The notes below the pieces were generated by a model, which saw only the letters and a program-made list of their open reading frames with translations, was not told where the DNA came from and made no database searches. A program made the translations under genes and the position numbers. From assembly GCA_021781415.1 (NCBI GenBank), contig JAJXWW010000079.1, positions 62,001 through 126,000 of the forward strand: a stretch of 64,000 nucleotides of DNA. Direction: 5' to 3'. The stretch is from Planctomycetota bacterium (lineage in GTDB: Bacteria > Planctomycetota > Planctomycetia > Gemmatales > Gemmataceae). This document shows positions 3,590-47,439 of this stretch, one piece after another (position 1 is the first letter of the stretch; every line of letters begins with the position of its first letter).

Positions 3590-6500
3590 CTACTCCTGAC
3601 TCAGTTCCTTCAGGTTCATTTCCACCGCTTGAATTTGGATCTGTAGATCGGCGACGAGATCGCGCTGTTGTTGGACCACATCGGCGGGGGCGCGCTCGAC
3701 GAAGTTGGCGTTGCCGAGTTTCGCTCGCGCCGCCTGCAGATGTTTCAGCTTTTCGGCCACTTGTTTTTCCAAGCGAGTCTTTTCGGCATCGACATCGATC
3801 AAACCTTGCAGCGACGTGTAGATCTCGAAATCCGCCGTCACCTGGCTGGCGGCTTGGCGCGGCTTCTCAATGGCAGGACCGCACTCCAATCGAGCAACGC
3901 CTGCCAAAGATGCGATGAACGGCGTGAGCGCGCGAAAATCCTCGGCGATGGACTCGGAGCAACGCACGAACACATCGAGATTCGTTTTCAGATCGACAGT
4001 GTACCGATTTCGCACTTCGCGCACGGCGCGGATCAGCTCTTGCATTCGACCGATGCGCGCCTCCATCGCGCCATCGCGCCACGTTTCGGGCAGAATCGGC
4101 CATGCCGCGACCACCACGCTTTCGGCTGCCGGCTCCGGCGCGGGTAAGCCACGCTCGAAGGCGATCTCATTGAAAGCCTGCCAAATCGACTCGGCGACGA
4201 ACGGCACAATCGGCTGCACGAGCCGCAAGATGCCGTCGAGAACCCCGACCAGGACGCGCTGCACCAATGGACGCGCTGCGGGATCTTGCAGGCGGCGCTT
4301 GCTCATCTCGAGGTACCAATCGCAGAACTCGGACCAGGTGAAATCGTAGATCGTCCGCGCTACCTCGCTGAAACGATAGTTCTCCAGATGTTGCGTCACC
4401 GTGGCGGCCGTCGTCGCCAAGCGGCTCAGGATCCAGCGATCTTCGAGCGGCAAGTGTTCGACATGAATCGCTTGCGGAGTATAACCCTCTAAATTGAGGA
4501 ATAAAAAGCGGGCCGCGTTCCACAGCTTATTGGCAAAGTTGCGACCGACCTCGAAGCGCTCCGATGCCTGCTTCGCCGTCGGCAATTCCGGATCGGGAGC
4601 GTGCCATGGCCCGCCGGGACGAAACGGTTTTTTGCAGCTGGGACAGGCGATCTTGCGCGTTTTGCCGCCGAGATGCTCCATCTTCACCGGCACGAGAACA
4701 TCGCAATGCGGACACACGTTGGCCACCGGCATCTTGCTGTCCTGCGTCTCCGTGGCCAAATGAACCATTTGAAAGCGAAGCGCGTCGGCTCCGTAGCGCT
4801 CGATGATGTCGAGCGGATCGAGACCGTTGCCCTTGGTCTTGCTCATCGTCTCGCCAAAGGCGTCGAGGATCTTCGGATGGATATAGACCCGGTGAAACGG
4901 CACTTCGCTGAGGTTGTATAGTCCGGTCATCACCATGCGCGCCACCCAGAGCGTAATAATGTCGCGGCTCGTTACCAGCACGCCGGTCGGATACCAGTAG
5001 GCCAGCTCCGGCGTATGTTCCGGCCAGCCGAGCGTCGAGTGCGGCCACAACGCCGAACTGAACCAGGTATCGAGGACATCCGGATCTTGTTCCAAAGGAT
5101 ATTTCGGACCCAGAATATCGCTCGGCAAATCGTTGAGGGCGCAAATGAGCCAACGGCCGTTTGCTTCGTCGAGCCGCCAGGCCACGTCATCGCGTCTCTC
5201 GAAGATGCGCTTCAGTTCGTTTTCCGGACAATACGCATACCAAATGGGAATGCGATGTCCCCACCACAACTGGCGGCTGATGCACCAATCGCGCTTCTCG
5301 CCGAGCCAATCGAGATAAGTCTTGGCATAGCGCTCCGGACTGAAGCGCACGCGGCCTTCGTTCACGGCGTCGATAGCACGCTGGGCCAAACCCGGTTGGC
5401 CGTTCGCGTCGCCCATGCGCACGAACCATTGATCCGATAGATACGGCTCGATGGGTGTCTTGCTGCGATCGCTGACCGGGATGGTGTTCTCGATTTCCTC
5501 TTCGCGGTCGAACAAGCCGATTTCCTGCAAATCTTCGATCACTTTTCGCCGCGCTTCCATGCGGTCGATTCCAGTGTACGAGAAGGTTCGACCGCGATAT
5601 TCGCCGCACCCCTTGTCATTGATCGAACCGTCGGGATTCAAAATGTTGATCGGTTCGCCGATCTCCTTGTGGCGTTCCCAGACGGCATAATCGTTGGCAT
5701 CGTGAGCGGGTGTAATCTTGACCGCGCCGGTCCCTTTTTCGGGATCGGCGTAGCGATCGGCAATCAGCGGTATTTTACGTCCCACAAGAGGCAATTCGAG
5801 AATCGCGCCGGCGCGAGCGAGTTCGGCGAGATTTACTAGATGCGGAAGCATTTCGTCGCGTCGGCGGCGCAGACGTTCGAGTCGTTCCTGGATGTCGCGC
5901 AGCTCTCTTTCGTTCGCCTTGGCCAAACTCGCCTCCAACTCGCGCTCGCGCTTGTCGAGTTCGCGCGCCGGTTCGGGATGGACGGCGACGGCGGTATCGC
6001 CGAGCATCGTCTCCGGCCGCGTCGTGCCAATGAGGACATGGTCGAGACTGCCGGACGCTCCCGATAAAATCGGATAGCGAAAGTAGTAAAACTTGCCTTT
6101 CTGTTTGACGTTCTCCACTTCGTCGTCGGCCACCGACGTTTGCAGTTGGGCATCCCAGTTCACAAGTCGTTTGCCGCGGAAAATTAGGCCGTCTTTGAAC
6201 ATCTTGAAAAAAGTAGTGCGAACGGCGCGAGCGCACACCGGATCGAGGGTGAAGCGCGTCCGCTGCCAATCGCAGCTGCAACCCAATTCGCTGAGCTGGC
6301 CGAGGATGCGCTTCTCGTATTGGTCCTTCCATTGCCAGATGCGCTTCACCAGTTCCTCTCGACCGAGATCGCGGCGCGTCTTCTTCTCTTCGTCGCGCAG
6401 ACGGCGTTCGACCACGGCTTGCGTGGCAATGCCGGCGTGATCGGTTCCGGGCATCCAGAGCGTAGCGTAGCCCTGCATCCGTCGCCAACGCACCAACACG

Positions 6501-42020: not shown

Positions 42021-42949
42021 GAGAGCTGAATCTCGAAAACGCGGCCCTCGCGGAATGCTCCGCGCTCCTCATCGAAAACGCGCTGAACCGCGTGCAGGTG
42101 CGAGCCTTCAATGACGTAATCGCTATAAGACCACAATCCGCGTTGGGTGGCGCTACCGGCGCAGATGACGGGGAATGGCGCGTATTCGGAGTGCGGATGG
42201 TGATAATGTTCGTGGCGATGGCCGTGCAGCCATAGCGTGACGCCACCGTTTTTAGCCACGGAGAGCAGGTCGTTCAGATCGCGCAGACCGTGGAAAACGC
42301 CTTCCGGTTTTCCCTCGGCCAGACAAATGGGATAGTGAGTGATGAGAATGCGGTGTCCTGGCTCCAGTTGGTCGAGGAGCTTTTCCAGTCGTTCGAGCTG
42401 TTTCGATCCAACTCTCCCCCGCGCGTCCCAATACAGTCGATTGGCCGTCGAGGAGTTGACGCCGATCAACCACAAATGCCCGACGCGTTGAGCAAACGGA
42501 TAGACGTCATTGCCGATGCGTTCGCCTTGCTGCCAAGGGGCGAAAATCCGCTCGAAGTGGCCTCCTCGCACGGCGGAAGCGGTACAGTAATCGTGATTGC
42601 CTGGCACCGCCAGACCCCTAAAAGCCTCATTTCCCACGCCCAGCAAGCGCGCCGCGCTGTGAACCTCTTCCTCGAACCCCATCGTCGTGGCATCGCCGGA
42701 AAAAAGGAGACGATGATAGCCTCGCTGCCGTACCTCCTCGCGCAACGCGGTCAGAATGCGTTCGGTATGACGAAAGCGTTTGCCTCGACCCAGAAGGCGA
42801 AGATTGATCCATGCCGACATGCGTTTGTTGAACCAATCGCGCGGTCGCCACGAACGAATGGGCGCAGAGACGTGGATGTCGCTGAAATGGGCGAGACGGA
42901 CGAGGGGGGTATCGTTGGTGTCGATGGTGATAGACTCCCTCGTTCCCAC
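42002..42949 (-). CDS. Calcineurin-like metallophosphoesterase
   Basis: LAHFSDIHVSAP, FSGDATTMG, VPGNHDYC, LWLHGHRHEHY; GTG start in ORF track, start uncertain. Confidence 0.88.
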   Translation of the reverse strand: MGTRESITIDTNDTPLVRLAHFSDIHVSAPIRSWRPRDWFNKRMSAWINLRLLGRGKRFRHTERILTALREEVRQRGYHRLLFSGDATTMGFEEEVHSAARLLGVGNEAFRGLAVPGNHDYCTASAVRGGHFERIFAPWQQGERIGNDVYPFAQRVGHLWLIGVNSSTANRLYWDARGRVGSKQLERLEKLLDQLEPGHRILITHYPICLAEGKPEGVFHGLRDLNDLLSVAKNGGVTLWLHGHRHEHYHHPHSEYAPFPVICAGSATQRGLWSYSDYVIEGSHLHAVQRVFDEERGAFREGRVFEIQLSANRQR

Positions 42950-43013
42950 GCTCCGCGTGGGAACGCGCGTCCAGACGCTCCGCGTCCCGAAAGACGCGGA
43001 GCGTGGGAACGAG
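42939..43013. repeat. Palindromic intergenic element with 20-bp perfect terminal inverted repeats
   Basis: CTCGTTCCCACGCTCCGCGT ... ACGCGGAGCGTGGGAACGAG. Confidence 0.85.
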
Positions 43014-44827: not shown

Positions 44828-46954
44828 ATGAGCTTGCCGAGAGTTGTCGCAACGCTCGGATCGGCTCCACCGTGCCACGAACCGAAAGACGAAACGATGC
44901 TTTCTCTGCGAATCGCTCGCGGCAAATGCTTGCCGCTCGGCGCCTCGGCAATGCCCGATGGCGTTAACTTCGCTCTCCTCTGTCGCAATGGCACCTCCGT
45001 CACTCTGGTAGTCTATCCGCTCGACGGCCTTCAAACGATTGCCGAAGTACCGTTGGATCGGCGGCGCAATCGAACCGGCGACCATTGGCACATTCTCGTC
45101 GCCGGTCTGCCGTCCGCCTTCACCTACGGTTGGCGCGTCGAGGGGCCGCGCGGTTTGGGGCATCGTTTCGATCCGTCCATCGTACTGCTCGATCCCTCGG
45201 CGACCGCCTTGTCCGATAGCTCGTCGTGGGGCGAATCGCACGAGCCGGACTCGATGCGCTGCTCCGCGCGGCGAAGCGTGTATCTTCGTCGTCCCTTCCA
45301 TTGGGGGGAAGACGCGCCGCCGTTGACGCCGCTCGAAGATACGATCGTGTACGAATTGCACGTTCGCGGCTTCACCTGTCACCCGAACTCCCTGGTCGCT
45401 CATCCCGGAACCTTTGCCGGCGTGGTCGATAAAATCCCCTACCTCGTCTCGCTCGGAGTTACCGCCGTCGAGTTGCTGCCCGTTCACGAGTTCGACGAGT
45501 GCGACTGCCCGTTTCGCAATCCCGACACCGGCGAGCGCCTGCGCAATTTTTGGGGATATAACAGCGTCGCGTTCGCGGCGGTCAAGGCTGCCTACGCCGC
45601 CACGGGGAAGGATCACGGACAAGTCACCGAGTTCCGCGAGATGGTCCGCGCTTTCCACGACGCCGGAATCGAAGTCTATCTCGATGTGGTGTTCAACCAC
45701 ACGGGCGAGGGGGACGAACGCGGTCGAACCTACTCGTTTCGCGGTCTCGACAATCATCTGTATTACATGCTCACTCCAGAGGGAAAATATCTCAACTTCT
45801 CCGGCTGCGGCAATACCGTCAACTGCAACCATCCCGTCGTGCGCAACCTCATCCTCAACTGTTTGCGTTTCTGGGTGGCTGACATGCACGTCGATGGCCT
45901 GCGCTTCGATCTCGCTTCCGTCATGGGACGCGATTTCTTGGGGCGCGTGATGGTCGATCCGCCCATCGTCGAGATGATCGCCGAGGAAGGCGTGATGACC
46001 GACACGAAGTTGATCGCCGAACCGTGGGACGCGGCAGGCTTGTATCAGGTAGGCGGCTTTCCTTACGGGCGGCGTTGGTCGGAGTGGAACGGCATGTACC
46101 GCGATCACGTTCGCCGTTTCTGGCGCGGCGAACCGGGCATGGTGGGACAATTGGCGACGCGGCTGTGCGGCAGTTCCGATCTCTACGAACGCTCCGGACG
46201 GCAACCGCGCCATTCGCTCAATTTCATCACCTGTCACGATGGCTTTACTCTCTGGGATCTGGTGTCGTACAACCAAAAACACAATCGGGCCAACGGAGAG
46301 GACGAGCGCGACGGCTGCGGGGAAAACTACAGCTGGAACTGTGGCGTCGAGGGACCGACCGGGGACGCCAAGATTCTCGCCCTGCGCCAACGTCAAGCGC
46401 GGAACCTGCTCGCCACGCTTTTGCTGTCGCAGGGCGTACCGATGTTAATGGCCGGCGACGAGTTTCTCCGCACACAGAACGGCAATAATAACGCTTGGTG
46501 TCAAGACAACGAACTCTCGTGGATCGATTGGTCGCTGGCCGAACGCAATGCCGGATTCCTACGCTTCACGCGCGAGATGATCGCTCTGCGGAAGCGTCAT
46601 CCCGCCCTACGTCGAAGGAATTTCCTGTGGGGATCCGATGTGATTTGGCACGGCGTGATTCCCTTCAAGCCAGACTTCTCAGCGTGGAGCCGCAGTCTCG
46701 CTCTGGTTCTCGACGGTCGCCGCACCAATCGCGAGCCGGATCGAGACATCTACATGGCTTTTAACGCTTGGACCGAGACGTTGGCGTTTCGCATCCCACC
46801 CGCGCCCCAAGGCCGTCCGTGGCATCGCGTCGTCGATACGGCACTTATCTCGCCGCGCGACATCGTCGGCCTCGACGAAGGCCAACGCATCGAAGTAGGC
46901 TCGACCTATCCCGTGGTGGCGTTCTCGACCGTGGTATTGATCGCCGAAGCATGA
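44828..46954 (+). CDS. glgX: Glycogen debranching enzyme (GlgX/isoamylase type); start at 44828 or 44897
   Basis: YELHVRGFTCHPNS, DVVFNHTGEGDERG, DGLRFDLASVMGRD, AEPWDAAGLYQVGGFP. Confidence 0.94.
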   Translation: MSLPRVVATLGSAPPCHEPKDETMLSLRIARGKCLPLGASAMPDGVNFALLCRNGTSVTLVVYPLDGLQTIAEVPLDRRRNRTGDHWHILVAGLPSAFTYGWRVEGPRGLGHRFDPSIVLLDPSATALSDSSSWGESHEPDSMRCSARRSVYLRRPFHWGEDAPPLTPLEDTIVYELHVRGFTCHPNSLVAHPGTFAGVVDKIPYLVSLGVTAVELLPVHEFDECDCPFRNPDTGERLRNFWGYNSVAFAAVKAAYAATGKDHGQVTEFREMVRAFHDAGIEVYLDVVFNHTGEGDERGRTYSFRGLDNHLYYMLTPEGKYLNFSGCGNTVNCNHPVVRNLILNCLRFWVADMHVDGLRFDLASVMGRDFLGRVMVDPPIVEMIAEEGVMTDTKLIAEPWDAAGLYQVGGFPYGRRWSEWNGMYRDHVRRFWRGEPGMVGQLATRLCGSSDLYERSGRQPRHSLNFITCHDGFTLWDLVSYNQKHNRANGEDERDGCGENYSWNCGVEGPTGDAKILALRQRQARNLLATLLLSQGVPMLMAGDEFLRTQNGNNNAWCQDNELSWIDWSLAERNAGFLRFTREMIALRKRHPALRRRNFLWGSDVIWHGVIPFKPDFSAWSRSLALVLDGRRTNREPDRDIYMAFNAWTETLAFRIPPAPQGRPWHRVVDTALISPRDIVGLDEGQRIEVGSTYPVVAFSTVVLIAEA

Positions 46955-46972: not shown

Positions 46973-47087
46973 CTCGTTCCCACGCCGGAGCGCGGGAACG
47001 CAGGCTTCATCGCTCGGCGGTGCGAGACGTGGAATACGGGACGCGGAGCGTCCGGACGTGCGTTCCCACGCTCCGCGTGGGAACGAG
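46973..47087. repeat. Second copy of the GTTCCCACGC palindromic element, 13-bp terminal inverted repeats
   Basis: CTCGTTCCCACGC ... GCGTGGGAACGAG with internal palindromes. Confidence 0.75.
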
Positions 47088-47162: not shown

Positions 47163-47249
47163 TTATTTGCGGTGGCGAATGCGGGCGCGCATGCGCCGTT
47201 TCTTGCGACCCACTTTTCGCCTTCCGCTGCCGCGACGCCGACTCCCCAT
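47163..47249 (-). CDS. 28-aa highly basic microprotein, candidate bS22 / AURKAIP1-COX24-like
   Basis: MGSRRRGSGRRKVGRKKRRMRARIRHRK*; perfect SD (AGGAGGT, 5-6 nt spacing); TTGTCG-N16-TACAAT promoter-like sequence upstream. Confidence 0.75.
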   Translation of the reverse strand: MGSRRRGSGRRKVGRKKRRMRARIRHRK

Positions 47250-47439
47250 TGATTACCTCCTGCGCGACCGCGCTGTAAACTCAAAATACTGGATTCAACC
47301 CTTCGGAATGCTCGACTCCGAGAAGGGGCTTATTGTAGAATGGAAACCATCTGCGACAAGGCCATTCTCGCCTTCGCTTCCGGCAAGGCGAAGACCGGCC
47401 CACGATCGGAGGAATCCTTCGCCTTGGAGTGCGATATTC

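Follow-up and report, generated by a model that had tools for sequence, protein, structure and literature searches.

A near-universal 28-residue protein of the Planctomycetia, a probable bS22-type component of the small ribosomal subunit

Genomes of the bacterial class Planctomycetia share a near-universal gene for a 28-residue basic protein that is missing from Pfam and NCBIfam models, and we consider this microprotein to be probably an overlooked, class-wide small-subunit ribosomal protein of the bS22 type, seated in the bS22/mS38/eL41 pocket. The gene lies on the minus strand of the window, by which we mean the whole 64,000-nucleotide stretch of DNA that was analyzed (Table 1). A first-pass annotation had pointed to an unannotated basic reading frame of this length preceded by a perfect Shine-Dalgarno sequence, and the frame, the peptide, and the AGGAGG element were all confirmed. 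Because an in-frame TAA lies two codons 5' of the ATG, the N terminus is fixed and there is no longer form. The peptide is rich in arginine, and its 28 residues, 16 of which (57%) are Lys or Arg, place it within the size and charge range of bS22 (28 to 33 residues, 55 to 65% Lys and Arg); the latter composition is that reported for bS22 and eL41 (PMC10085706).

Table 1. Features of the microprotein gene in the window and divergent members of the family
Feature	Position or group	Strand	Basis or remark
28-codon ORF MGSRRRGSGRRKVGRKKRRMRARIRHRK plus stop TAA	47163..47249 (ATG at 47249)	minus	conserved microprotein; coding statistics
Shine-Dalgarno AGGAGG	47256..47261	minus	6 nt upstream of the microprotein ATG
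In-frame stop TAA	47253..47255	minus	two codons upstream of the ATG; the frame is a 29-aa open frame
Sigma-70-like promoter TTGTCG-N16-TACAAT	TTGTCG 47359-47354, TACAAT 47337-47332	minus	scan and relatives
5'UTR hairpin	47299..47328	minus	fold -12.8 kcal/mol, z -1.7; close relatives only
Divergent relative MAKPRRRRKVGSKKRKARWKVRHKIG	groups f77, f82, f55		profile iteration
Divergent relative MAFKPRRRRKIGSKKRRMRKLRSKKK	group f54		profile iteration
Divergent relative MRKKHRGRRKIGQKKRRARKKRRLKK	groups f74, f80, f59, f91		profile iteration
Divergent relative MASGKKTGRGRRKIGSKKRRARRRRRKKRGK	group f20		profile iteration

Conservation and coding evidence

The reading frame is a real protein-coding gene, strongly constrained and single-copy across the class. 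The first-pass annotation had named a lack of conservation of the peptide or its Shine-Dalgarno sequence in relatives as grounds for refutation; the gene passed this check strongly, with peptide conservation far beyond chance. One good match was present in each of 53 of 59 relatives (E 4e-4 to 4e-9), and four of the six genomes without one are less than 90% complete. In a phylum-wide draw, 38 of 39 other Planctomycetia genomes had a match, with E-values of about 3e-8 or lower, and a second good match occurred in no Planctomycetia genome of this draw. A scan of named genomes returned at least 51 loci; among the matches listed, nearly all are titled planctomycetes, and the remaining record titles among the core-motif matches listed read simply "bacterium". 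Across 147 distinct sequences, the 16-codon core has a pS of 0.78 and a pN of 0.17 (pN/pS 0.22), with all six codons used at invariant Arg positions and two at invariant Lys positions. Of these 147, 126 (86%) have an upstream Shine-Dalgarno sequence of 4 nt or more, mostly at a spacing of 5 to 8 nt, and the flanking DNA is mostly unalignable beyond close relatives. The ordered positions of the protein include non-basic residues, namely G14, I/V13, M20, I24, and H26. Start codons are ATG in 125 sequences, GTG in 16, and TTG in 6; the GTG and TTG starts occur in several Planctomycetia lineages (L034, L035, L072, L074, L083, L113, and others) and would further hide the protein from gene callers.

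Searches of family libraries, structures, and literature did not recover the protein. Pfam COX24_C (PF08213) matched neither the window protein nor 25 relatives at E of 10 or below, and had no match in the window's own genome or in Planctomycetia genomes; the NCBIfam search of the microprotein found nothing; phmmer and profile searches of the PDB with the family gave no sequence match; and a search of open-access literature found no paper mentioning the protein. The absence of a near-universal class gene from curated libraries is probably due to its length of 28 codons, and small size is known to let bS22 itself escape annotation, for example in Borrelia (PMC10618245). The invariant core RRK[VIL]G.KKR..R provides annotators with a ready search pattern.

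Divergent relatives and canonical bS22 in the Planctomycetota

Profile iteration recovered divergent relatives of 25 to 31 residues outside the Planctomycetia, most of them with an upstream Shine-Dalgarno sequence. In total, 65 of 392 phylum genomes, in 15 family-level groups, carry the microprotein at E of 2e-3 or below, although some of the genomes counted contributed to the profile, and their E-values are therefore not independent. RRK[VIL]G.[KRT]KR..R is constant across the whole family. Canonical bS22 was detected in 17 of the 392 genomes, in 16 family-level groups that all lie outside the Planctomycetia, and in none of the sampled Planctomycetia genomes. No genome in the sample has both genes, and neither does any family-level group; the hypergeometric p for non-overlap is about 0.04, calculated without phylogenetic correction for a pattern that follows phylogeny. 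The two genes have no adjacent gene in common.

Two types of bS22 are found in different family-level groups of the Planctomycetota (L229 to L245), one actinobacteria-like (SVIKKRRKKM) and the other Bacteroidota/Spirochaete-like (PCGRK..KINKHKRKK), which suggests rapid divergence or transfer. At one of these loci (L229:5053-5349; G059:C299), the canonical bS22 gene (about 5160-5250, minus strand) is flanked by two tRNA genes of the same strand, tRNA-Gly (5277-5349) and tRNA-Leu (5053-5139).

Comparison with bS22 and other small ribosomal proteins

Among known proteins, the closest likeness by motif is to bS22 of the Bacteroidota/Spirochaete type (COX24_C/AURKAIP1, PF08213; structures 7jil and 8fmw), which is likewise 28 to 30 residues long and more than 55% basic, and is helical, as is predicted for the microprotein. 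An M-x-S/C start is common in both; both have a hinge motif, K-[VIM]-[AS]-T-H-K-[RK]-K in bS22 and K-[VIL]-G-[SRQ]-K-K-R-[RK] in the microprotein; and N-R-H-K near the C terminus of bS22 has its counterpart in I-R-H-R. The microprotein differs in its hinge Gly, in having about one residue fewer between hinge and C terminus, and in being Arg-rich rather than Lys-rich. The first-pass annotation had likened it to actinobacterial bS22 (5o61, 8crx). That likeness holds for the MGS start, small size, and basic character, and the C-terminal L..R-[TM]-R-[VH] of the actinobacterial protein resembles M-R-A-R-I-R-H in ours; however, actinobacterial bS22 has 33 residues with an SVIKKRRKRM N terminus that the microprotein lacks, and the motif of the microprotein has more in common with the Bacteroidota/Spirochaete form. 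Further afield, the small basic helices eL41/aL41 (eS32) and mS38 occupy this pocket in the ribosomes of eukaryotes, archaea, and mitochondria. By eye, their RKRRKMR is similar to RKKRRMR of the microprotein, but mS38 is far longer.

Comparison of the microprotein and bS22 alignments with hhalign gave no significant match. We also used a shuffle test in which profile columns were permuted with composition kept, comparing eight small ribosomal proteins. Bacteroidota/Spirochaete-type bS22 was the strongest of the eight for four of the five subfamily profiles, namely Planctomycetia (z=2.5, p 0.017), f82 (z=3.2, p 0.008), f54 (z=3.0, p 0.010), and f20 (z=3.95, p 0.002), these p-values being uncorrected for several tests and subject to the caveat that K/R-rich peptides align readily. 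Taken with the pooled family profile, the range of z was 2.3 to 4.0; the f74 profile had no bS22 signal (z -1.0). As a positive control, actinobacterial against Bacteroidota bS22 scored z=4.8 (p 0.002). The actinobacterial protein itself was weak against the microprotein (p 0.045 with the Planctomycetia profile and 0.18 with that of the whole family).

Other identities were tried and set aside. For eL41 there was no signal beyond composition (family profile z -0.2, Planctomycetia profile z 0.96). The comparison sequences for THX, bL34, bL36, bS21, and bL37 were entered by hand; with these, bTHX, a 27-residue basic small-subunit protein whose GTYGKYRPRKK motif is absent from the microprotein, reached z of 0.53 or less with every profile, and bL34, bL36, and the bS21 C terminus reached about 1.3 or less, nothing beyond composition. 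AF2 predicted a single helix over residues 4 to 28 of a 30-residue relative at moderate confidence (mean pLDDT 74, pTM 0.34). Support for the original description of the protein as bS22-like comes from its length and charge, the helix predicted for it, the order of its motifs, and its absence from the sampled genomes with canonical bS22, but not from a bS22/COX24 profile match or a significant hhalign score. From the sequence comparisons, homology to bS22 appears likely but is not proven.

Proposed role and alternative explanations

Known occupants of the bS22 pocket are bS22 itself (mycobacteria, Cutibacterium, Flavobacterium, and Borrelia) and mS38 or eL41 (mitochondria, eukaryotes, and archaea). 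The bS22 helix, which is basic, lies in a cavity of 16S h27, h44, and h45 and extends to 23S H67/H68, where it makes an additional bridge between the subunits (PMC10085706; PMC10618245), and eL41 and mS38 occupy the same place (PMC7005279; PMC6582356). We infer the same role for the microprotein, with ribosome binding, this binding site, and descent from bS22. It would be a structural protein of the small subunit in planctomycetes, a single basic alpha-helix with a probable bend at the Gly-Ser/Arg step. This helix would sit in the h27/h44/h45 cavity beneath the mRNA channel and contact H67/H68, contributing an extra bridge. Its departure from bS22 would reflect rapid divergence with loss of about one residue at the hinge. 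If ribosomal, the microprotein would be an unlisted component of the planctomycete ribosome and would extend the site to another phylum. To our knowledge, the site has so far been described among bacteria in actinobacteria, Bacteroidota, and Borrelia. Presence on the ribosome would also bear on whether the site stems from one ancient protein.

We considered whether the protein could be ribosomal without being bS22. It might be a Planctomycetota protein of separate origin that fills the pocket independently, the site having repeatedly recruited unrelated basic helices, and we think this unlikely. A lineage-specific protein at another rRNA site, as bTHX, bL37, and bL38 are, has a similarly small chance of being correct: such a protein would account for the lack of profile-level homology to bS22 in hhalign, for the f74 subfamily, and for the score of bL37 against the Planctomycetia profile (z=1.95, with a hand-entered bL37 sequence), whereas the top rank of bS22 for four of five subfamily profiles, the z of about 1.3 or less for bTHX, bL34, bL36, bS21, and eL41, and the fact that the microprotein and bS22 never overlap all speak against it.

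Functions away from the ribosome are less probable still. The 57% Lys/Arg composition taken alone would suit a peptide that binds nucleic acids away from the ribosome, for instance an RNA chaperone or a nucleoid protein of protamine-like character, and the adjoining genes have no ribosomal function. Protamine-like tails, however, drift in composition, and the microprotein does not; its class-wide invariant core, a length held at 25 to 31 residues, and ordered non-basic positions make this reading rather improbable. A short frame with a 5'UTR hairpin also recalls a cis-acting leader peptide or uORF controlling a neighboring gene, which is very improbable given a promoter of its own, neighbors that vary among relatives, and selection on amino acids (pN/pS 0.22). 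Moreover, the gene leads no operon, because its 3' neighbor is convergent. Least credible is a cationic peptide that is secreted or acts as an antimicrobial: bS22 and eL41 peptides are themselves in vitro inhibitors of bacterial growth or of translation (PMC10085706), but the microprotein carries no leader or export signal, and near-universality with an invariant core is a housekeeping pattern.

Transcription signals and gene neighborhood

The microprotein gene stands alone, in single copy, under its own promoter. The promoter-like sequence TTGTCG-N16-TACAAT that had been noted upstream is present, and sites of this type occurred twice in a 611-nt scan against 0.2 expected. The form TTG[T/C]C..N16..TANAAT aligns among genus- and family-level relatives, and TTG[TC]C-N16/17-TANNAT was found upstream in many loci with a modest excess (mean best score 7.3, compared with 6.4 for shuffled sequence). 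The hairpin that the first-pass annotation had placed in the 5'UTR also exists, but it is not clearly beyond chance: its z in four same-genus genomes was -1.7, -0.3, -2.7, and +0.4, mostly not significant. An ordered leader structure was rejected, with a whole-leader fold z of +0.5, and no Rfam family was found in the leader. Because the hairpin is confined to the genus and close relatives and its stability does not regularly exceed chance, the autoregulation that had been suggested is unsupported.

On one side the gene is flanked by an isoamylase-type glgX on the plus strand, ending at 46954, with rho beyond it; on the other side is a divergent gene for an NHL-repeat, lipoprotein-like protein (plus strand, GTG start at about 47440), followed by two SDR/epimerase-type genes. 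The convergent 3' neighbor, glgX in the window, is different in relatives. Many genomes in the family to which the window belongs (L042, L048, L053, L056, L058, L067; L044, L049, L051, L057, L062) have in this place a gene for either an SDR of about 245 residues or a protein of about 300 residues that, judged from its sequence, resembles HemF coproporphyrinogen oxidase. A REP-like perfect palindrome, CGTTCCCACGCTCCGCGTGGGAACG, is located at 47061-47085 and again at 42941-42965, and has 43 copies in the genome at up to 2 mismatches, compared with 0 for a reversed control pattern. One copy falls between the microprotein stop codon and the convergent end of glgX, where it could terminate both transcripts.
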